DNA from: Oscillospiraceae bacterium
GTDB lineage: Bacteria > Bacillota > Clostridia > Oscillospirales > CAG-382
Length of the DNA: 64,000 bases
Direction: 5' to 3'
Assembly: GCA_015064945.1 (NCBI GenBank)
Contig: SVRF01000003.1
Span: 1-64,000 of the forward strand
Shown here: piece by piece, positions 48,293 to 61,355 of the stretch
Layout: the number at the start of each line of letters is the position of its first letter
Numbering within the stretch: position 1 is the stretch's first letter
Program-made: the position numbers and the translations under genes
The notes under the pieces: generated by a model
Seen by the model: the letters and a program-made list of their open reading frames with translations, nothing else
Told to the model about the DNA's origin: nothing
Databases searched by the model: none

Positions 48293-51200
48293 ATGAAAAG
48301 ACGTTTATGGGCGTTGGCTCTTTCTGTAGCATTACTGCTTTCTGCGCTGTGTGTTCAAACACCTGCCACCGCGGCGGATGCTGACTATATACCTAATATT
48401 TTGGAGTACGGAAGCTACAGCTCTTCTGCCGAATTCGTCATAACCTCTTATCACGGTATGGTGGAATTTTCCTCTTTGGCAGGCACCACCAATTTTAAAG
48501 GTAAGACCCTTTATTTGGGCTGTGACATTGATATGTCTTTAGGCAATTACACCCCTTTTACCTCTTTCTCCGGTACCTTTGACGGACAGGGCTATGCTTT
48601 GAAATCCATAAAGATAAGTGTAACCGATGTTCAGGCCGGAGTATTCGGCACCGTAAACGGCGCAGGCACGGTTAAAAATTTGGGCGTAGAGGGCGGAACC
48701 ATGACCTTGACCTCTTCATCCGACTCCTACCGTCTCGGCAGTATAGCGGGCGTTAACAAGGGAAAAATAGAGCGTTGTTACAGCACTGCATCACTTACGG
48801 TAAAAAAAGGCGGCACGGTTACCGACCTTTCCGTAGGCGGTATTGCGGGCGGTTGCATTACCAGCGGCGTTATTAAAGATTGCTACTTTGCAGGCTATGC
48901 CAAGGGGGTTGACCACGCATCCGGCATTTGCGACTGGGGACAGGGACACAATACGGGCTATATCGCCTCCTTAACCAACTGCTACAGCATCGGTGAGCTT
49001 GTGGCAACCGAATGCTTTGGACTTGCCAGATACAGCGCTTCCACCTTGGAGGAGAACTATCCCAACGCTATTACAAACTGCTATTACCTTAGCCAATACA
49101 AGGACGTTTCCTTTACGGATACCGATGTTTCCATAAACAAAACCGATTTGGGTACGGGCAAGCTGGCGTATCTGCTTGACGGCGGTGCTACAGCCTCCAC
49201 AAGAACGAGAGTTTGGCACCAAGGTGAGCTTTTTCCCGAACTTTCGGGCGATAAGGCCATAGGCACTTATAAACTCACCCTTAAATACACGGCAAACGGC
49301 ACTTCCGCAAGCGTTACCGCATACAAGAACGCAGGCGCTACCGTTTCCTTCAGCAACATCACCGCAACACTAAGTTCCTCCGGCAATGTAACAAACAATG
49401 TGTTTACAATGCCTGCCAAGGCTTGCACACTTAACATAAGTACTGCTTTGCCTTTGATAAACGATTACGCTTCCAATACATCGGCTACCGAGTTTATTGT
49501 TGTTAACGCCGCAGGCTTCACCACTCTTGCAAGCACGGTCAACGCAGGGACGGATACCTTCTCCGGCGACAAGATTTATATGCTTAACTGCATTGATATG
49601 AGTTCGGTAAGCCATACCCCTATAGGCGTATATATTTCCGACAGCGACCGCAGCAAGACCTTCCAGGGCACTTTTTACGGCAACGGGAACAAGGTTTGCG
49701 GTCTTAACGTAAACAAAACAAGTCTTAACGGCGGCGGGCTTTTCGGTACTCTGTACAAGGCAAAGATATACGATTTGGGCATTTCCTACGGTACGGTAAA
49801 AACCGCTAACAGAGCCGGCGGCATTGCAGGCTATGCGGATGCGAGCCAGATTAAAAACTGCTACAATCTTGCGGATATAACCACAACCACAGGCATTGAC
49901 GGTGCAGGCGGTTTGGCAGGCGTTTCGCGCTCTACCACCAAGTACACCAACTGCTTTAATTTAGGCACGGTTACCGCCACCGCAGGCTGTGCAGGCGGTA
50001 TAACAGGTTGGGGACAGACCAACGTTGTTCTTACCAACTGCTTTAACATGGGCAAGGTTACCGCAGGCGACGGCGACAAGCAGGGGCTTACACGCTATGC
50101 AGCGGCAGGGCTTACAACTATCCCTGTTGCGTCTTATTTTCTTAAAGCGAGCTGTGCTTCCGACTACGGTGTAAGCAAGAGCCGCACTCAGTTTGCGTCG
50201 GAAGAGCTGGCGTGGTTGCTGAACACCAAGGGCGGCACGGCAACAAACAGCCTGGTATTTACTACCACTCCGCTGTGTCCCGCTATATGCTACACCGCAT
50301 CCACGGGAGCAAAGCCCACCGTTAAGGTTACGGTAAACAGCAAGGATTCAGAGGGTAACATCGTTAATTCCGCAACAATGTATAAAAACGGCGGTGAAAT
50401 GCTGGTTCCGCCGCTTAACAGTACAAACTATATTGCCAACGCAGGTGTTGCAGCACCTGCAAAAGACGGGACGAAGGCTATAACCATGAAGAGATTGGAA
50501 AAAGGCACGCTGAACATAGGTACAGCCGCAGAGCTGAACAGCTTTATTTCCGCAGTTAACGGCGGCAACAGCTATGACGGATACACGGTTAAGCTCACTG
50601 CCGATATTGATATGAGCGCTTACACCTGCAAGCCTATCGGTACAAGCTCCAAGCCGTTCAGCGGTATATTTGACGGTTGCGGGTTTACGGTAAAGAACTT
50701 CAACACCGCCGCATCTAATACAAAATACAGCGCCATGTTCGGCACCCTTAAAGGCGGCACGGTAAAGAACTTGTATCTGGCAGATTCCAGGATTATAGGC
50801 GGGTATTTCTCCGGTGCTGTTGTAGGCAACAACTTGGGCGGCAGTGTTATAAACTGCGGCACCAACGCCACGGTTGAAAACCACTATACCACCGCAGAGC
50901 ACGAGATTTCCGTAATGAGTTTTAATGTCCGTGTAAACAGCGATGCTTCCCCCAACTCGGTATCCGACCGTGCACCCAGAGTAAAACAGCACATAGCGGA
51001 TTACAACCCCGATATTATAGGCTTTCAGGAGGTTGTTCCCCTTTGGAAGAGCAACTTTGACTCCTGGCTTACGGGTTACAGCAAGGAGTTTATATGGAGA
51101 GACTCCGCAGGCACGGAGGCGGCGCCCCTTTATTGGAAGACCGACAAGTTTACCGTGTTGGAGCAGGGCTCATTCTTCCTAAGCGAAACGCCCGATGTTA

Positions 51201-52501
51201 TGTCCAAGGGGTGGGATGCCAACTATAACCGCACCTGCAGTTATGCGGCGCTGGTTCATAAGGCATCGGGAATACTTGTACTTGCCTTCAACACCCACCT
51301 TGATAACGGCGGCACGGAGGCGAGACCCAACGGCGCGGCGCTTATTGCAAGCCGTATGCAGGCGTTGGAGGAAAAATACAAGGGTCAAGGCTACGGTGAC
51401 AATATAGCCATGTACTGCACGGGCGACTACAACAGCAAAAAGAACTCTACTGCATACGCAAATATGACGGCGAATCTTGCAGACCTGAGAACCGATGCCA
51501 ACACCAAACTTTCCTCCACAAGCCTTGGCACATACAACGGTTGGGGTGCTTCCGACTCTCTTATCGACTTTATATTCACCAACAACCACGGCAGTGAAAG
51601 CCTTACCTACAAGGTTAACAACGAGCAGATAAACGGCTACTATATCTCCGACCACTACGCGGTTTACGGCACTTTTGCCCTTAACTATATGCATTTAGGC
51701 GGGCTTGTGGGCTACAACAGCGGCTATGTGACCGATTGCTTTACCACAGGTACCGTGGCAGGCGGTATGAACACAGGCGGGCTTATAGGCTATAACACGG
51801 GCGTATTGGCAAACAGCTATAACGGAAATATTGTTGATTCCACAGACTTCATGGGTGGGCTTATAGGTGTTAACAAGGGCACTGTTACAAACTGTCACTA
51901 TCTTGGAAACAGCGCATATACCGCTTACACCAACAACACCGAAACGGTACCCACTCTTACAGAAACAGAGATTAAAACCGCAGACTTTGCCGCAACCCTT
52001 TCCGTTGGAAACACCAAGTGGTACCAATCCGAAGGACTCAACAGCGGTTACCCCTTCCCTGCTCCCTTGTTTATGAACAAACTTTTGATAATAAAGAGCA
52101 GTTCCGGCTATAGCAGAACCGAAAATAACTACTTATTCTCGGTGAGCGAAAGCACTGATGTTGCCACCCTCGCCTCCAACTTTGACAATGTGGGACTTAT
52201 CGTACGCAATAACAGCGGCACAGAGATCAGCACAAGCGCCAAGGTAGGCACGGGCTATACCGTAAGTCTGGAGCTTAACGGCACGCTTATAGACAGCGTT
52301 ACGGTTGTTGTAAAGGGTGATCTTTCAGGCGATGGTGCGATAAACACCACGGATATGGCAGCTATGCGCAAACTTCTTACAGCCTTTGCCCCTGCAGATT
52401 TGCAAAAGGCGGCGGCTGACCTTACGGGGGATGACACATTAAACACAACTGACCTGTTAATTCTAAGAAAACATTGCTCAGGCAAAAACCTCATAAGTTA
52501 A
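48293..52501 (+). CDS. Secreted GLUG beta-helix protein with nested EEP nuclease-fold domain and C-terminal dockerin
   Basis: 1402 residues. Signal peptide 1-28. GLUG-type beta-helix repeats (GSIAGVNKGKIERCYS, GGIAGYADASQIKNCYNLADIT) span most of 40-860. At about 869-1130 an endonuclease/exonuclease/phosphatase domain interrupts them, with ISVMSFNVRV, IGFQEV (metal Glu), FNTHLDNGG, CTGDYNSKK and ISDHYAVYG. GLUG repeats resume (GLVGYNSGYVTDCFTTGTV) and a type I dockerin (two LSGDGAINTTD-like Ca loops) ends the protein at about 1342-1395. A secreted enzyme, perhaps acting on phosphodiesters, docked to a cohesin. Confidence 0.88.
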   Translation: MKRRLWALALSVALLLSALCVQTPATAADADYIPNILEYGSYSSSAEFVITSYHGMVEFSSLAGTTNFKGKTLYLGCDIDMSLGNYTPFTSFSGTFDGQGYALKSIKISVTDVQAGVFGTVNGAGTVKNLGVEGGTMTLTSSSDSYRLGSIAGVNKGKIERCYSTASLTVKKGGTVTDLSVGGIAGGCITSGVIKDCYFAGYAKGVDHASGICDWGQGHNTGYIASLTNCYSIGELVATECFGLARYSASTLEENYPNAITNCYYLSQYKDVSFTDTDVSINKTDLGTGKLAYLLDGGATASTRTRVWHQGELFPELSGDKAIGTYKLTLKYTANGTSASVTAYKNAGATVSFSNITATLSSSGNVTNNVFTMPAKACTLNISTALPLINDYASNTSATEFIVVNAAGFTTLASTVNAGTDTFSGDKIYMLNCIDMSSVSHTPIGVYISDSDRSKTFQGTFYGNGNKVCGLNVNKTSLNGGGLFGTLYKAKIYDLGISYGTVKTANRAGGIAGYADASQIKNCYNLADITTTTGIDGAGGLAGVSRSTTKYTNCFNLGTVTATAGCAGGITGWGQTNVVLTNCFNMGKVTAGDGDKQGLTRYAAAGLTTIPVASYFLKASCASDYGVSKSRTQFASEELAWLLNTKGGTATNSLVFTTTPLCPAICYTASTGAKPTVKVTVNSKDSEGNIVNSATMYKNGGEMLVPPLNSTNYIANAGVAAPAKDGTKAITMKRLEKGTLNIGTAAELNSFISAVNGGNSYDGYTVKLTADIDMSAYTCKPIGTSSKPFSGIFDGCGFTVKNFNTAASNTKYSAMFGTLKGGTVKNLYLADSRIIGGYFSGAVVGNNLGGSVINCGTNATVENHYTTAEHEISVMSFNVRVNSDASPNSVSDRAPRVKQHIADYNPDIIGFQEVVPLWKSNFDSWLTGYSKEFIWRDSAGTEAAPLYWKTDKFTVLEQGSFFLSETPDVMSKGWDANYNRTCSYAALVHKASGILVLAFNTHLDNGGTEARPNGAALIASRMQALEEKYKGQGYGDNIAMYCTGDYNSKKNSTAYANMTANLADLRTDANTKLSSTSLGTYNGWGASDSLIDFIFTNNHGSESLTYKVNNEQINGYYISDHYAVYGTFALNYMHLGGLVGYNSGYVTDCFTTGTVAGGMNTGGLIGYNTGVLANSYNGNIVDSTDFMGGLIGVNKGTVTNCHYLGNSAYTAYTNNTETVPTLTETEIKTADFAATLSVGNTKWYQSEGLNSGYPFPAPLFMNKLLIIKSSSGYSRTENNYLFSVSESTDVATLASNFDNVGLIVRNNSGTEISTSAKVGTGYTVSLELNGTLIDSVTVVVKGDLSGDGAINTTDMAAMRKLLTAFAPADLQKAAADLTGDDTLNTTDLLILRKHCSGKNLIS

Positions 52502-52587
52502 ATCACCCCAAGAAGTCTTACGACTTCTCGAGGACCCCGACAAAAATCACCCCAAGAAGTCTTACGACTTCTCGGGGACCCCGACAA
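52502..52587. repeat. 42-bp structured repeat, tandem copies B and C
   Basis: Two copies (52502-52543, 52546-52587) start right after the stop codon. Each has CCCC, stem GAAGTC/GACTTC around loop TTAC, then a GGGG/GAGG and ACCCCGAC. On the minus strand the loop reads GTAA, a GNRA tetraloop. Copy A is at 28178-28219. Confidence 0.75.
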
Positions 52588-52596
52588 CAAATAAAA

Positions 52597-52634
52597 AACA
52601 TCGGTAGGAATATTTCCTCTACCGATGTTTTTTC
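52597..52634. terminator. Bidirectional terminator between the dockerin gene and the PAP2 gene
   Basis: AACATCGGTAG and CTACCGATGTT stem with inner GAA/TTC, flanked by A and T tracts; serves convergent genes. Confidence 0.88.
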
Positions 52635-53296
52635 TATTCTGCTTTAAAAAACTTACTTAAACGTTGATGCTTGAGCACATACGCCAAGCAATACATTATA
52701 GGCACCAGAGCGAATGCCGCGAAAACATCTATTATGGAATGCTGTTTTATAAGCACCGTTGATGCGGAAATAAGCAGACAAAGCACCAAGGACGAATATT
52801 TAAGAAGCTTATACCTTGCAAGCTTTTCGTCCTTGCAAAGGCAAATATGTAATGCCACGCTGACATAAACGTGCATACTGGGAAGCACCGTCGTGGGTGG
52901 ATCGATACCACGTATAAGCTTTACCGCCTCCACAAGCAAATTTTCCCTTGGGAAAGCTTCCATCCCTGCCCTGTCAAAGTACATGGGGATAAAAGTACAG
53001 ATAAGCATACACACAAAGGCACCGCCCGCAACCATAACTGTAAACCTGAAAAATTTGGCAGGACGCTTGAAAAAGGTATAAACACCTAAAAGCCCCAGCT
53101 GTACATACCAAAGGATATATGGGATAACAAACCACTCGCAAAACGGAATTTTATAGTCCAATCCGCAAACTATGGGATAAGGGTCACGGCCCATGGTTGT
53201 TTGCTGCAGCAAAGAGTACCAAAGCCCGTGCACGGGCCAATAGGCAAGCAACCATATTTGCGGATGCGCTTTTAAATATTCTTTTATTTTTGACAT
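52634..53296 (-). CDS. PAP2-superfamily membrane phosphatase
   Basis: 220 residues, about six helices. The PAP2 motifs are LPSMHVYVSVALHICLC (PSxH) and ISASTVLIKQHSIIDVFAAF (SxxxxxxHxxxD); the first motif (KxxxxxxRP) appears as FFKRPAKFFRF. ATG at 53296 with AAGGTG upstream. Last gene of a five-gene operon; 9 nt from the preceding stop. Could dephosphorylate a lipid or undecaprenyl pyrophosphate in service of the operon product. Confidence 0.82.
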   Translation of the reverse strand: MSKIKEYLKAHPQIWLLAYWPVHGLWYSLLQQTTMGRDPYPIVCGLDYKIPFCEWFVIPYILWYVQLGLLGVYTFFKRPAKFFRFTVMVAGGAFVCMLICTFIPMYFDRAGMEAFPRENLLVEAVKLIRGIDPPTTVLPSMHVYVSVALHICLCKDEKLARYKLLKYSSLVLCLLISASTVLIKQHSIIDVFAAFALVPIMYCLAYVLKHQRLSKFFKAE

Positions 53297-53305
53297 AAAC
53301 ACACC

Positions 53306-55492
53306 TTATTGAGGCTTGCCGTCAACATAAGTGATGGTACGCCATTCCTCTTCATCGCCGTAATAATATTGGGCTTTCCCCTGTAAAAAGCCTTCCACGA
53401 AGTCTCCTTTTACCATATCGCCGTCGGCATAGGCAATAACGCCGTAGCCGCTAAACTTGCCGTCTTCAAAGCCGCCGCTGTAGCTGCCGCCTGCGGCAAA
53501 GGTCAGAACCGCCTCGTCGTCGTGGTATTTGTTGTGGACAAAGTAACCCTTATAATGGTCGCCGTTTTTAAACAAAGCTGTACCTTCGCCCTCTAAAACA
53601 CCCTCTACAAAGACACCCGTATAGCTGTTGCCGCCGATAACATAAGTACCCTTGCCGTTTTGTACATTATTTATCCATCCGCCTTCGTAGCTGTCGCCGT
53701 TACTGTAAAGATACTTGCCCTGCCCGTGGCGCACGCCCATAACAAAGTCACCTTCGTACACGTCGCCGCTGGTCCAGACAAATTTCCCCTTGCCGTGCCA
53801 TTTGCCGTCCTTAAGAGTGCCCTCGTACATATCACCGTTGGCACATTCATAAACGCAAACGCCCGTGGGCTTACCCTCGAAGAAGGTGCCAGAAACAAAG
53901 CCGCCGTCGGGGAAGTACCAAGTACCCGTGCCGTTTATCTCATCCTCGTACCAAATGCCGTCGTAGCGACTGCCGTCGTTATATTTATATAGTCCGTTGC
54001 CGTTGAACATTCCCTCGGAAAAACTGCCGCTGTAGCTTTCGCCGGAATTAAAGACCAAGGTTCCCGTACCGTCGGGCACTCCCTGCACAAGCCAGCCCGT
54101 ATACAGGCCTTCCCTATACGCTATGGTTCCGTATTCCCTCTCGGGGATATCAAAGGAAGGTTCGTCACTTGCGCCGTCCTCGCTTATTTCCTCCGAGGAA
54201 GGCTCATCGGAATTATGCAAAACCTCTTCATCCGAGGTATCTGTACTGTTTCTGCCGGGGGTCATAAGCCGTGTACCTATAAACAGAATGGCAAACACAA
54301 GGACACAGATAAGAAGAAGTGCGGTAGCGATATCGCCTGCGGTCATCCTCTGTTTACCGTTTTTATAGCGCTTTATGTCCAGCGCTGTCATAAGCTGTTT
54401 GTTGCGCTTTAGGGTAGCTTTATCCACCGACGCCCCTTTTGCATAGCGTGCCGCAGGCTTTTTACCCCTGAACAACAGAGAAAACCACCTGAATACCCAC
54501 ATCAAAGGTAACAGGAAGGGCAGATACTTCAAAAAAGGATACCTTTCCTTCATCGCGCCGAAGGACGGGAACACCGATGAGATAAAATAGCCTAACCTGC
54601 TTTTATCCCCACGCTTGTTGGCAGCGCTTATCTCGGCACTGCCGAAAACGCCGCCCGATAATATGTAGTCCGCAAAGTTCTGCGTAAGCTCGTCGGGAGT
54701 GTTGCCGTAGAACAAACAATGTATAAGCTTTTTTACCTGTATTTCAAAGCGTACAAGCCCCATGGACTCCAGCACGCTTTTAACATACCCATCGTCCAGC
54801 TTTAAACCGCAACGGGAGAAAAATACCTTTATATCCGCAAGCATACGTATACCTGCGCCCGAGGTGCGGACGTGACGGGCAAAATGGGACAGCATATAAA
54901 TATAAAAATCACTTAGGTTAAGGGAAAGTCTAAAGCCCTTTTCCCCTACGGGCAGGGCACGCTCCATAAGATTTTTGTGGAAGTCACTGCTGTCCGCAGG
55001 CTTCCAATGCAGCTCGAATACATTGCCGTTTTCGTGCTTATATATGTCGTGTCCGCTGTGAGAGTCAGTTCTCTTATATCCACAGCTTTCCATTACTTTT
55101 TTTGCATCCTTACGGTTAAAACGCTCTATCATTATATCCGTATCGCCCATAAGGCGCATATCGGTGGAGGGGTAATACATACGCATCACACTGCCCTTAA
55201 GGGGGAGATAATTAAGCTCCGCTTTGTCAAAAGCGGCAAAGACACGCTTCTCCTCCTCTTCACGGCTAAGGTCCCAAAGCAATGCTTGGTTGTGGACGTC
55301 CTCCAGCATAGTGCGAAGTTCTGCGGGAATATCTGCGCCGCTTAGAGAGTAGTAAACAGAGCTTGCCACACCCTGCGACATAGCAAGACGGAAAAACTCT
55401 GCAGATTTAACATCCGCAAAGTCTGCATTACAGGCTTTGCCTGCCAAAGCGGCAGCATAAGCCTTGACCAAATTTCTTTCCGTTAGCGTCAT
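53306..55492 (-). CDS. Nucleotidyltransferase (NTP_transf_5)-TM-MORN fusion protein
   Basis: 728 residues. Residues 1-340 match the 'uncharacterised nucleotidyltransferase' family found in lasso-peptide and other PqqD loci: NYLPLKGSVMRMYYPSTDMRLMGDTDIMIE, with the GDTD metal motif at 116-119. A membrane helix follows at 388-408, a Ser/Asp/Glu linker to 450, then about twelve MORN repeats (GTGTLVFNSGESYSGSF, GKGKFVWTSGDVYEGDF) to the end. Predicted topology puts the transferase in the cytoplasm and the MORN array outside. I know of no described protein with this fusion. Confidence 0.85.
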   Translation of the reverse strand: MTLTERNLVKAYAAALAGKACNADFADVKSAEFFRLAMSQGVASSVYYSLSGADIPAELRTMLEDVHNQALLWDLSREEEEKRVFAAFDKAELNYLPLKGSVMRMYYPSTDMRLMGDTDIMIERFNRKDAKKVMESCGYKRTDSHSGHDIYKHENGNVFELHWKPADSSDFHKNLMERALPVGEKGFRLSLNLSDFYIYMLSHFARHVRTSGAGIRMLADIKVFFSRCGLKLDDGYVKSVLESMGLVRFEIQVKKLIHCLFYGNTPDELTQNFADYILSGGVFGSAEISAANKRGDKSRLGYFISSVFPSFGAMKERYPFLKYLPFLLPLMWVFRWFSLLFRGKKPAARYAKGASVDKATLKRNKQLMTALDIKRYKNGKQRMTAGDIATALLLICVLVFAILFIGTRLMTPGRNSTDTSDEEVLHNSDEPSSEEISEDGASDEPSFDIPEREYGTIAYREGLYTGWLVQGVPDGTGTLVFNSGESYSGSFSEGMFNGNGLYKYNDGSRYDGIWYEDEINGTGTWYFPDGGFVSGTFFEGKPTGVCVYECANGDMYEGTLKDGKWHGKGKFVWTSGDVYEGDFVMGVRHGQGKYLYSNGDSYEGGWINNVQNGKGTYVIGGNSYTGVFVEGVLEGEGTALFKNGDHYKGYFVHNKYHDDEAVLTFAAGGSYSGGFEDGKFSGYGVIAYADGDMVKGDFVEGFLQGKAQYYYGDEEEWRTITYVDGKPQ

Positions 55493-55494
55493 AT

Positions 55495-55914
55495 TTACCC
55501 TCTTTTACCCCTTAGCATCCGTAAAGCCGTGCGCCGAAGAACACGCAGTCTTCCGTACATTCGATGGGAAAAGCCTTGCAGTTTGCGGCTTTTACCCTCT
55601 GTTTCCGCCCTTACGGCAAGTGCCGCCACAAGACTTTTGTCCACGCCTTTTTCCGTAACAAGCTCGTTATCGCCACGGCAGTTAAGGCTGTCTTTTGCGA
55701 CCTTTACAACACGGTGCAGTACAACTGCCCCGTTTTTGCGTTTATACAAAACAATATCGTATTTTTTGATTTTTGCGGGAGCGGTAAGCTCCACCATCGT
55801 AACGCCATCCTTAAAAAGGGGCATCATACTTATACCCGTTACCGTAAGCTCAGCCCTTGCGCCTCTGTCCACACGCTGTTTTATCAAATCGAAAACATCA
55901 TCATTCTTCAACAA
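55495..55914 (-). CDS. S24/S26-family signal-peptidase-like protease
   Basis: About 139 residues. TVTGISMMPLFKDG holds the nucleophile Ser (GxSMxP), IKKYDIVLYKRKNG the strand before the base, and VVLHRVVKV a His where eukaryal/SipW-type signal peptidases have the catalytic His. No N-terminal membrane helix is visible. I start at TTG 55914, 6 nt after GGAGG, within the pqqD-like 3' end. Overlapping genes on both sides. Might cleave a leader peptide. Confidence 0.78.
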   Translation of the reverse strand: MLKNDDVFDLIKQRVDRGARAELTVTGISMMPLFKDGVTMVELTAPAKIKKYDIVLYKRKNGAVVLHRVVKVAKDSLNCRGDNELVTEKGVDKSLVAALAVRAETEGKSRKLQGFSHRMYGRLRVLRRTALRMLRGKRG

Positions 55915-56167
55915 GGCACGCCTCCCTAAGCTTGCCGTAAAATCTGTCCACATCTGCGGCGGCAATAACCTCATCCACTTCGTAGGTGCTTGTAAGGGCG
56001 GCAACAGTTTCCTCTCGGTCAAGCCCTTTTTCCAAGGAGCGCCATATAAACGCACCCGTGCCGTTAAAGCTTATCATACCGTTGAACTGTAATTTTGCAT
56101 CACCCGTAGGCACAACAATATAACTTTCGCCAAGCTCCCTTAAAACAAAGCCCTGCTTTATCTTCAT
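55901..56167 (-). CDS. PqqD-family peptide chaperone (RiPP recognition element)
   Basis: 88 residues. Begins MKIKQGFVLRELGESYIVVPTG and continues FNGMISFNGTGAFIWRSLEKGLDREETVAALTSTYEVDEVIAAADVDRFYGKL, the PqqD winged-helix pattern. PqqD proteins bind leader peptides of ribosomally made, modified peptides. Starts inside the stop of the kinase gene (ATGA). Confidence 0.86.
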   Translation of the reverse strand: MKIKQGFVLRELGESYIVVPTGDAKLQFNGMISFNGTGAFIWRSLEKGLDREETVAALTSTYEVDEVIAAADVDRFYGKLREACLVEE

Positions 56168-56862
56168 CTTAAATCCTCCGTTGCCGCAAAGGCGGTAAAC
56201 GCCGCCTCGTCCTGCATATTACAGTCCAAGGAAAGCACGCTGACCTTATCCAAAAAGCTTTGTAAGCTGACAAAAAGCGCATCCATACCGTGACTGTCAG
56301 CAGGGCGCAGCATCGACTCCAACAGCAAATAAGGCGTTTTGCTTTTATCCATGGGCTTAACGTAATTAAACTCTGCCCGCCTTAAAAAGTATAGGGCTTT
56401 TACAACGCCGCAGGCGTTTATGCGCCCGTATCCGCTGCCGCACCAAGGGGTGCCGAAGGCGTAGGGCACGCCATCGATTATACGGATGGCAGGCTTATCG
56501 TCATTGATGATTACGGCACCTTCTATATTCTTGACCCAAAGGGCGGCGTGGGTGGATTTACCGATGCCGCTGGGGGCGGAAAATAAATACACAAAATCCT
56601 TGTAAAGTACCGCAGAAGCATGAAGCACAAAGCCACCGTGGTAAAGCAGTTGGCTGCAAAACTCCACACAGCTTAACTGATACTCCGCCAAAGGGACAGA
56701 AAGTCCCGCTTGCTGAGCCAATGCCTGTACATCCGCATCCTTAAGCTTTATGCTTATATCGGAAGCGCTATCCCTACTTAAAAAGGGGGCGGCTCTATCC
56801 AAAAGCTCATTATACTGAGGGGTCATTTCCACATTTAAGCCGCATATACGGTAAATTGCCAT
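56164..56862 (-). CDS. HPr-kinase-like P-loop kinase
   Basis: About 232 residues from the ATG at 56862 (GGGGAG 4 nt upstream). P-loop SAPSGIGKSTHAALW near residue 98, INDDKPAIR near 120 and FGTPWCGSGYGRINA follow the HprK/P-like C-terminal domain. In lasso-peptide clusters (paeninodin type) relatives phosphorylate a peptide's C-terminal Ser; a PqqD gene follows directly here. First gene of the operon, with its own consensus promoter. Confidence 0.82.
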   Translation of the reverse strand: MAIYRICGLNVEMTPQYNELLDRAAPFLSRDSASDISIKLKDADVQALAQQAGLSVPLAEYQLSCVEFCSQLLYHGGFVLHASAVLYKDFVYLFSAPSGIGKSTHAALWVKNIEGAVIINDDKPAIRIIDGVPYAFGTPWCGSGYGRINACGVVKALYFLRRAEFNYVKPMDKSKTPYLLLESMLRPADSHGMDALFVSLQSFLDKVSVLSLDCNMQDEAAFTAFAATEDLR

Positions 56863-56915
56863 ATTACTCCCCCTCTCCTCACGAAAAGGCACATATCGCC
56901 TTTTAATACGACTTA

Positions 56916-56944
56916 ATTATATAACAGCAAAGATACAAAGTCAA
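56916..56944 (-). promoter_or_regulatory. Sigma-A promoter of the kinase-PqqD operon
   Basis: Minus strand TTGACT (56939-56944), 17-bp spacer, TATAAT (56916-56921). Confidence 0.82.
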
Positions 56945-59798: not shown

Positions 59799-61355
59799 TT
59801 AACCAATAGTGATAGTACCGAAGGACTCGGTTATCAAATCTGCGTCAAATTTAAGGATCTGTGATGCGTCCAAGCTATCCGTTTTGCCGTCGCCGTTTAC
59901 ATCACCTACAAGCTCGGTTGCAGCATCAAAGGTGATAAGCTCCGCATCGTGACGGAGTACATAAGCAGCATCCAAATTGTCAACATTGCCGTCATAGGTT
60001 ACGTCGCCCAATACATATTCCTGCCCTGCAGAGGACCAAACAGCATAAAGGGTTACATCTGCATTTGCGGTATAGCTTGCGCCCGCTTCATAAGCAACAA
60101 CGGTGGAGCTGCTGCTTGTTGCCCAGCCTTCAAAGGTAAAGCCGTCTTTAACAGGAACAATGCTGCTGAGGGTAAGCGCTTCGCCTTCCGTTTTTGTCTG
60201 AGCAGAGGGAGCACCTGCGCCGCCGTTAGCATTGTAGCTTACGGTATAGGTGCGTACTGCGTCACCGCTTACGCTTACGGTATGAGCTGCACCTGTAACG
60301 CCGTAATTAACAAAGCCTGCTGCATCTACTGCCAAAACAAAGGTCTCGTTAACCAAATCGTTATCGATGCTGATAACAGCCTCACCTGCGGAAAGCGCCT
60401 TAAAGGTGATGGCAAAGCCAAGACTGTTATCCGCTTTTACATAATAATCATCGTTTGCCAAGAGATCATCAGCAGTACAGGCAACACTGAGCCAATAGGG
60501 TACAGCGCCTTTATCGGCAGAACTTAAATCGGTGGTTTTGCCAGCCCAATTTGCGGGCACGATAGGTTCTGCGGAAACAAGCTGAAGTTTGGTCTTGTCG
60601 TATACAAGAGGAAGGTCGCAAGCAACGAGACCGTTGGGTGCGGTTATAGCATTAACATAAGCGTTAACGGTAAAGGTGCTGCCTGTAGCAACGGCAGTTT
60701 TGCCGCTTAAGGACATAGCGGCACCGGGCTTGTAGGAGCCGGTAGAGAAGCCGTATGCTTCAAGCTCGTCAAAGCTTACAACGTATTTGTAACCGGAAGA
60801 AGCTTGGGTATTAAGCTCTACCTTTATCTTCTTTACGTCCATAGCGGTTTCGCTAAAGGTGGCGGTAACGTCAAAATACTGCTCATCAGTAGAGTCGGGT
60901 GCATAGGGTGCGCCCTCGATAGCTACAGAGCTTTCCTCAAAAGAAAGTGAGCTGTAGGAGCCCGTTTCGCCTGCAACCTGAATATCAACAATGTTAAGAT
61001 ATCTGTTGCCGTTTCTGCGAACGCCGCGGAAAACAAGACAGTTCACAAAAGAGGGGGCTTTTAAAGTAAACTCGATTATAGTGGAGCTATAGGTACCCAC
61101 AAGCTCTACAGTAGTGCCGGGAACGCCGTACATATCGTCAAATTCCACGTCCTCACCGCGAACCTTACCGTCGTTAAGCACGGTACAGGAGGTATCTGTG
61201 CAGGAATTTAAAAAGCCGTTACTGTCCTCCACATAAACATAGGTTGCATCCAAAAGCAGGTTTTTGCCGAGTTCCTCTGCACCTGCAGGTACGGTAAATA
61301 CCACGGTGCTGAGGCACATAAGCAAGCAAAGAATAAATGCAAGGGTTCTTTTCAT
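59799..61355 (-). CDS. Secreted cohesin/dockerin protein with N-terminal F5/8C-like domain
   Basis: 518 residues. Signal peptide 1-26. Residues 31-206 form a beta-rich domain resembling F5/8 type C/CBM32. Residues 219-370 read like a type I cohesin (VATGSTFTVNAYVNAITAPNG, CDLPLVYDKTKLQLVSAEP, SLGFAITFKALSAGEAVISI). An InlB/Listeria-Bacteroides repeat (YNANGGAG...FEGWATSSS...DVTLYAVW) spans 379-448, and a dockerin (GDVTYDGNVDNLDAAYVLRHD and GDVNGDGKTDSLDASQILKFD) spans 457-512. A possible small scaffoldin or adaptor. GAGGAAAATAACA precedes the ATG. Confidence 0.8.
   Translation of the reverse strand: MKRTLAFILCLLMCLSTVVFTVPAGAEELGKNLLLDATYVYVEDSNGFLNSCTDTSCTVLNDGKVRGEDVEFDDMYGVPGTTVELVGTYSSTIIEFTLKAPSFVNCLVFRGVRRNGNRYLNIVDIQVAGETGSYSSLSFEESSVAIEGAPYAPDSTDEQYFDVTATFSETAMDVKKIKVELNTQASSGYKYVVSFDELEAYGFSTGSYKPGAAMSLSGKTAVATGSTFTVNAYVNAITAPNGLVACDLPLVYDKTKLQLVSAEPIVPANWAGKTTDLSSADKGAVPYWLSVACTADDLLANDDYYVKADNSLGFAITFKALSAGEAVISIDNDLVNETFVLAVDAAGFVNYGVTGAAHTVSVSGDAVRTYTVSYNANGGAGAPSAQTKTEGEALTLSSIVPVKDGFTFEGWATSSSSTVVAYEAGASYTANADVTLYAVWSSAGQEYVLGDVTYDGNVDNLDAAYVLRHDAELITFDAATELVGDVNGDGKTDSLDASQILKFDADLITESFGTITIG

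Follow-up and report, generated by a model that had tools for sequence, protein, structure and literature searches.

The subject of this study is a five-gene operon in a 64,000-nucleotide stretch of DNA (hereafter the window) from the gut-type clostridial genome of an Oscillospiraceae bacterium (assembly GCA_015064945.1, contig SVRF01000003.1, positions 1 to 64,000). The genes encode an HprK-like kinase, a discrete PqqD-type recognition element (RRE) of the kind that serves ribosomally synthesized and post-translationally modified peptides (RiPPs), an S26 peptidase, a nucleotidyltransferase fused to MORN repeats and a PAP2 phosphatase. With a probability that we put at about 0.7, what the operon encodes is a clostridial version of the RiPP machinery for linear polyphosphorylated peptides (LPPs), joined to an envelope module and directed at a substrate that has diverged or has escaped notice. 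We prefer this reading because the genes and their order are those of lppK-B-S-(D)-N, the RRE pocket residues are identical to those of LppB, the serine, histidine and G-D aspartate of the peptidase are invariant, and the predicted kinase fold and the P-loop are intact. In addition, LppA-like precursors in relatives co-occur with the kinase, the ratios of nonsynonymous to synonymous substitution rates (dN/dS) are low, and capsule or polysaccharide genes lie nearby.

LPP clusters, with the gene order lppA-K-B-S-D-N, were described in Paenibacillus alginolyticus in May 2026 (Popov et al., PMC13381572). There, LppK was shown to phosphorylate one core serine of the peptide several times, LppB binds the YxxP leader, LppS cuts the leader together with LppB, and LppD is responsible for export; LppN had no proven activity, and deletion of lppN had no visible effect (PMC13381572). 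Polysaccharide genes neighbour these loci, and LPPs were known from Bacilli, their role being unknown as of the 2026 description (PMC13381572). Like these clusters, the window operon has a kinase, a discrete RRE, a SipW-like peptidase and an NTP transferase in the same order and no macrolactam cyclase; the polysaccharide-gene neighbourhood is shared by the window's relatives. The match can be considered independent, since the gene set and the precursors had been recognised before the comparison with the LPP paper. The window operon differs in lacking a precursor gene and an MsbA-like exporter, in the fusion of its transferase to a transmembrane helix and MORN repeats, and in the addition of PAP2. 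An earlier note on this DNA, made from the sequence alone, had proposed that a peptide encoded elsewhere is acted on by a kinase, a recognition element and a protease that removes its leader; this was largely right, with the LPP paper as prior art. The operon class is thus already known. What is new, and described below, is a lineage lacking detectable precursors, a MORN/PAP2 partner that forms a module of its own, and the connection of precursors with secreted proteins.

Concerning the kinase, no Pfam or NCBIfam model matched the protein. Its AlphaFold model (predicted local distance difference test score 93.8) matched PEPCK and HPr kinase structures at Z scores of 11-13, so that the HprK/PEPCK fold is predicted, as it should be for an HprK-like kinase. 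The P-loop SAPSGIGKST and the NDDKP and GTPW motifs are intact in the window and conserved in 27-36 relatives, being nearly invariant across 36. The earlier note had called the protein an HprK-like kinase and had named an inactive P-loop as grounds for refutation; the structural matches agree with the former, and the intact P-loop speaks against the latter.

The family profile of the PqqD protein matched the lasso peptide B1 protein TbiB1 at 1.8e-10, lasso B1 RREs being the closest group in the PDB, and LppB (9x8z) at 1.2e-5. When the window protein was aligned to LppB, N33, Y60, D70, F74 and L83 were all found to be retained, and Y62, D72 and F76 are conserved in at least 90% of 24 relatives. 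D70 of LppB is the residue that reads the leader tyrosine; lasso PbaB1 has Gln at this position and the window RRE has Asp. As judged from the alignment, the window RRE retains the residues that would read a YxxP leader. The kinase, RRE and transferase also make up the tailoring set of the paeninodin and pseudomycoidin lasso peptides (PadeK, PsmK, PsmN; PMC9266682), and together with the profile matches to B1 structures this would fit a paeninodin-type lasso cluster with dispersed genes. We regard that explanation as hardly credible. A transglutaminase-like B2 protease and a macrolactam cyclase are absent beside the operon (B2 was not searched genome-wide), with an S26 protease present instead, and no lasso-type cyclase was seen in three genomes. 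In the window genome (G000; its two sister species are G002 and G003), the genome-wide Asn_synthase matches amounted to one full-length match in a 632-residue AsnB-like protein and a second of 44 residues, and the pocket carries the Asp of the Tyr type rather than the Gln of PbaB1. The arrangement put forward on first reading, a RiPP-type set that has a soluble S26 protein in place of the leader protease of lasso clusters and lacks a macrolactam cyclase in its vicinity, is the LPP architecture.

The S26 protein matched the Pfam S26/S24 model at 0.0019 and the NCBIfam signal peptidase I model at 2.5e-9, both below the cut-offs (curated in the case of Pfam). Its motifs G-x-S-M-x-P, H-R and G-D are invariant in 23 relatives. 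Numbered from the TTG start, S29 and H67 match S29 and H68 of LppS, and the invariant D82 is probably the counterpart of D93. SipW and archaeal type I signal peptidases belong to the same Ser-His catalytic family; unlike them, the window protein has no membrane anchor and is encoded with an RRE and a kinase.

Taking these conserved residues together with the reactions reported for LPPs, we presume that the kinase, RRE and peptidase of the window operon act in the same manner. The PqqD protein would bind a YxxP leader, the kinase would add one or more phosphates to a serine of the RRE-bound peptide, and the peptidase would then remove the leader, with the RRE presenting the cut site. The roles of the remaining components are more conjectural. 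The membrane-anchored transferase, its MORN part predicted to lie outside, might attach a sugar- or nucleotide-phosphate group, and the substrate of PAP2, on the outward-facing side of the membrane, may be a phosphorylated lipid or a phosphate product. The most likely product is an RRE-guided phosphopeptide or phosphoprotein that is modified, itself or by way of its carrier, at the membrane. The substrate would be encoded away from the operon; either its leader has diverged beyond recognition, or its gene falls in sequence that the assembly lacks. Nucleotidylation of the peptide by the transferase, as the earlier note suggested, is not supported: the homologue in the pseudomycoidin pathway (PsmN) adds a hexose to phosphoserine (PMC9266682), and loss of lppN was without visible effect. 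A hexose addition of this kind would be in keeping with the capsule context.

The kinase, RRE and peptidase genes (K-B-S, in the order lppK-B-S) were found together in most of 40 relatives from the window's order and in ~60 of 121 loci overall; NTP_transf_5 genes were present in ~20. The earlier note had named a lack of co-occurrence in other genomes as grounds for refutation, and the genes do co-occur. An MsbA-like ABC transporter gene occurred in 39 of the 121 loci and capsule-regulator genes in 22, and capsule or polysaccharide genes adjoin many of the relatives' loci.

Upstream of the kinase in ~20 loci of relatives, we identified LppA-like small open reading frames (ORFs) whose leader reads MKxxYExPEhEIxxFxxEDhhTxS and whose acidic core bears aromatic residues near its end. 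The leader, YxxPEhEIxxFxxEDhhTxS, differs from that of the LPPs, YxxPxVLxHQxIxFETxxS, and an NCBIfam search of the precursors gave nothing above cut-off. A precursor profile found further copies elsewhere in the same genomes and also in genomes outside its training set, at E values of ~1e-12. One genome of the window's own genus, G001, encodes the precursor peptide MKKSYIKPDMEVV... Among 148 relatives, a precursor was present in 33 of the 50 genomes with the kinase and in 10 of the 98 without it (Fisher 4e-12, a statistic that ignores shared ancestry), and 41 of the 43 precursor-bearing genomes carry the kinase or the transferase. It was common in related genomes for precursors to lie apart from the kinase operon, in accord with the proposal that the substrate is encoded elsewhere. 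The clostridial set extends LPPs from Bacilli to gut and rumen Clostridia and supplies dozens of precursor sequences. In two genomes, G008 and G020 (loci L176, L183, L185, L186 and L189), several paralogous precursors have different leaders and the nearly identical core SDEEVFVDGGDLFD, although the kinase was not seen to have a PqqD gene next to it there.

Several observations weigh against an LPP-type function of the window operon. Two profiles that work in relatives detected no precursor in the window, in its genome G000 (assembly 84% complete) or in G002 and G003; short ORFs with a conserved leader, of the kind that the earlier note suggested looking for, were seen in relatives and not in these three genomes. 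Small ORFs in the 167-bp gap upstream of the operon and in both flanks were compared among three congeners, and none was conserved. A search of 27 loci for the leader pattern combined with a ribosome-binding site gave no precursor in the window and its two sisters. The DNA pattern ATGAARN{3,6}TAYNNNNNNCC gave more matches in the three genomes than a reversed control, with no evident peptide family among them. A search of G000 and G003 for the C-terminal domain of precursor-linked secreted proteins matched internal regions of large proteins, none of them followed by a small gene. An MsbA-like exporter is absent from the operon and both neighbouring genes, and shared ancestry may account for part of the association between kinase and precursor. 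The remaining points concern the transferase. In G001 and G004, the transferase-MORN and PAP2 genes stand behind the same divergent phosphoglycerate mutase gene with K-B-S absent, and G006 shows the same arrangement without K-B-S, its contig ending inside the transferase gene. The link of the transferase to the peptide may therefore be loose.

Since transferase-MORN and PAP2 are kept without K-B-S at the same locus, the operon consists of two modules with separate histories, and the five genes are not an obligate unit, contrary to their initial description as one system. In some species at least, the transferase-MORN pair can thus function where there is no kinase. A transferase tree places G006 inside the K-B-S-bearing group (support 82/95); loss of K-B-S in G006 is likely, with a second gain as the alternative. 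In G016, from another genus, a PqqD gene directly precedes the transferase-MORN gene (L261, 7495-9945) with no kinase or peptidase. The transferase matched NTP_transf_5 (PF14907) at 3e-38 and MORN (PF02493) at 1.7e-35; a PDB sequence search gave no real match, and the model has a nucleotidyltransferase fold with Z scores of ~11 to MenT1 and ANT(2''). G100, Y107-P108, D117-x-D119 and E160-x-H162 are invariant in nine relatives. The transmembrane helix (hydrophobicity 3.04 over 19 residues) has a positive N-terminal side and an acidic C-terminal side, a charge pattern suggesting that the MORN part lies outside the cell. The array, helix and acidic linker described earlier are present, with ~11 MORN units, one motif every 23 residues, rather than about twelve. 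PAP2 matched PF01569 at 2.1e-5 and PF14378 at 3.7e-4, and its motifs are conserved in congeners. The MORN-fused transferase and PAP2 hint at a membrane coupling of the unexplained LppN step.

These observations raise the possibility that the operon is a remnant, in which the precursors and exporter have been lost and K-B-S is decaying, while transferase-MORN and PAP2 remain useful in an envelope or glycopolymer modification unrelated to peptides. We consider this unlikely. The absence of precursors in the three genomes would be accounted for, as would the absence of K-B-S in G001, G004 and G006, where transferase-MORN stays and PAP2 is seen wherever the contig reaches; the position of G006 in the tree suggests loss, and the kinase and S26 peptidase diverge faster than the transferase and PAP2. 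On the other hand, kinase, RRE and peptidase are intact in three species at dS >0.9 with dN/dS of ~0.08-0.29 and all catalytic residues kept, and the gene overlaps and the promoter are conserved. The dN/dS was ~0.3 or less for every computable gene pair between the window and its sisters (for PqqD, dS had reached saturation in the comparison with G003). The five genes occur in identical order in both sister genomes, with identities to the window of 70-86% in G002 and 52-64% in G003. Taken together, dN/dS far below 1 and conservation in the sisters indicate that the operon has been maintained by selection in at least three species.

A further difference from the known LPP clusters is that precursors of the clostridial relatives often lie elsewhere, behind large secreted-protein genes. 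For 24 of 33 distinct precursors in long loci, a same-strand gene ends at most 60 nucleotides upstream. Among the complete genes at this position, 15 of 17 start with a signal-like segment, as called by a crude predictor, compared with 20% of all ORFs of at least 200 residues in these loci (Fisher 3e-9). Many of the precursor-linked secreted proteins are 1000-2500 residues long, and a subset has a common C-terminal domain. Precursors lie directly behind very large secreted-protein genes at L161 (6746-6904), L163 (8201-8329), L165 (6793-6924), L167 (7382-7627) and L166 (3948-4136), and also in L053, L122 and L140, in many cases at a distance from the kinase operon. The isolates Acetivibrio alkalicellulosi and Herbivorax have the complete set (L140, L122). 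In L052 (11408-12547) and L033 (8804-9691), the tail of a secreted SLH-domain protein repeats nine residues of the neighbouring precursor's core exactly, EGDNGTGWG and DNDIADPWG, respectively. The longest string shared in unrelated pairs was five residues. Secreted or surface proteins, S-layers and MORN did not turn up in a word search of the LPP paper (PMC13381572).

We tentatively raise a broader interpretation, which we regard as doubtful: the clostridial K-B-S may be a genome-wide hub that matures many phosphopeptides, each matched to a giant surface protein encoded upstream, and the window lineage may have re-aimed this hub at a new substrate together with transferase-MORN and PAP2. If so, LPPs would be building or docking units of the cell surface and not secreted antibiotics. 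With most precursors tied to large secreted proteins, the function of LPPs becomes open to direct test. The same neighbourhoods bear on another explanation, that K-B-S targets not a small RiPP but an envelope protein of larger size that contains a YxxP segment, or the acidic Ser/Glu linker of the transferase-MORN protein itself. Secreted or anchored proteins with acidic linkers lie beside K-B-S in L033, L040, L052, L053, L070, L121, L122, L131, L138, L140 and L146, the two with core copies among them, and the window transferase has a similar transmembrane helix and Ser/Glu linker. Their signal peptides and anchors mean, however, that a cytoplasmic kinase could reach them only until they are exported. 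In addition, the N-termini of the neighbouring secreted proteins showed no YxxP leader that was noticed, and transferase-MORN is kept at loci that lack the kinase. We judge a target of this kind to be very unlikely.

Returning to the layout of the operon (Table 1), all five ORFs are intact and, as first proposed, lie tightly spaced between a promoter and a terminator. The best start of the kinase gene is the ATG with the ribosome-binding site GGGGGAG, and that of the S26 gene is a TTG with AGGGAGG, giving a soluble protein close to the 138 residues of the G003 copy. The kinase and PqqD genes overlap by 4 nucleotides and the PqqD and S26 genes by 14; gaps of 2 and 3 nucleotides separate the S26 gene from the transferase gene and the latter from PAP2. 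The -35 and -10 boxes and the spacer length are kept in both sisters while the flanking sequence has diverged, and the promoter is therefore more than a chance match. The terminator was read directly from the sequence; the automatic scan missed it because its loop is longer than 8 nucleotides.

Table 1. Coordinates of the operon and its signals in the window.
Feature	Position	Strand	Basis
Sigma-70-type promoter, TTGACT-17-TATAAT	56916..56944	-	11/12 consensus positions; conserved in G002 and G003
HprK-like peptide kinase (LppK-type), 232 aa	56164..56862	-	AlphaFold fold, conserved motifs
PqqD-type discrete RRE (LppB-type), 88 aa	55901..56167	-	PF05402 1.3e-15
Soluble His-type S26 leader peptidase (SipW/archaeal signal peptidase I-like; LppS-type), ~139 aa	55495..55914	-	
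NTP_transf_5 nucleotidyltransferase (LppN-type) with transmembrane helix, acidic Ser/Glu linker and ~11 MORN, 728 aa	53306..55492	-	PF14907, PF02493
NTP_transf_5 catalytic domain	54710..55402	-	PF14907 match, invariant residues
Transmembrane helix of transferase	54263..54340	-	Hydrophobicity, model helix aa 385-410
MORN repeat ectodomain (predicted)	53348..54103	-	PF02493, 23-aa motif spacing, beta-hairpin ladder in model (low confidence)
PAP2 membrane phosphatase	52634..53302	-	PF01569, PF14378 (both below cut-off), motifs PSMH ... KQHSIIDV
Intrinsic terminator	52591..52634	-	Hairpin ACATCGGTAG...CTACCGATGT, followed by a run of T

Two tandem copies of a ~40-nucleotide hairpin unit, GTCGGGGTCC[C/T]CGAGAAGTCGTAAGACTTCTTGGGGTGATTT, lie at 52500-52585, in the interval that separates the operon from the convergent gene. 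Large secreted proteins are encoded on either side of the operon, one at 48293-52501 with GLUG, exo/endonuclease-phosphatase and dockerin domains and the other at 59799-61355, which looks dockerin-bearing by eye. Proteins of similar length occupy both of these flanking positions in G003.

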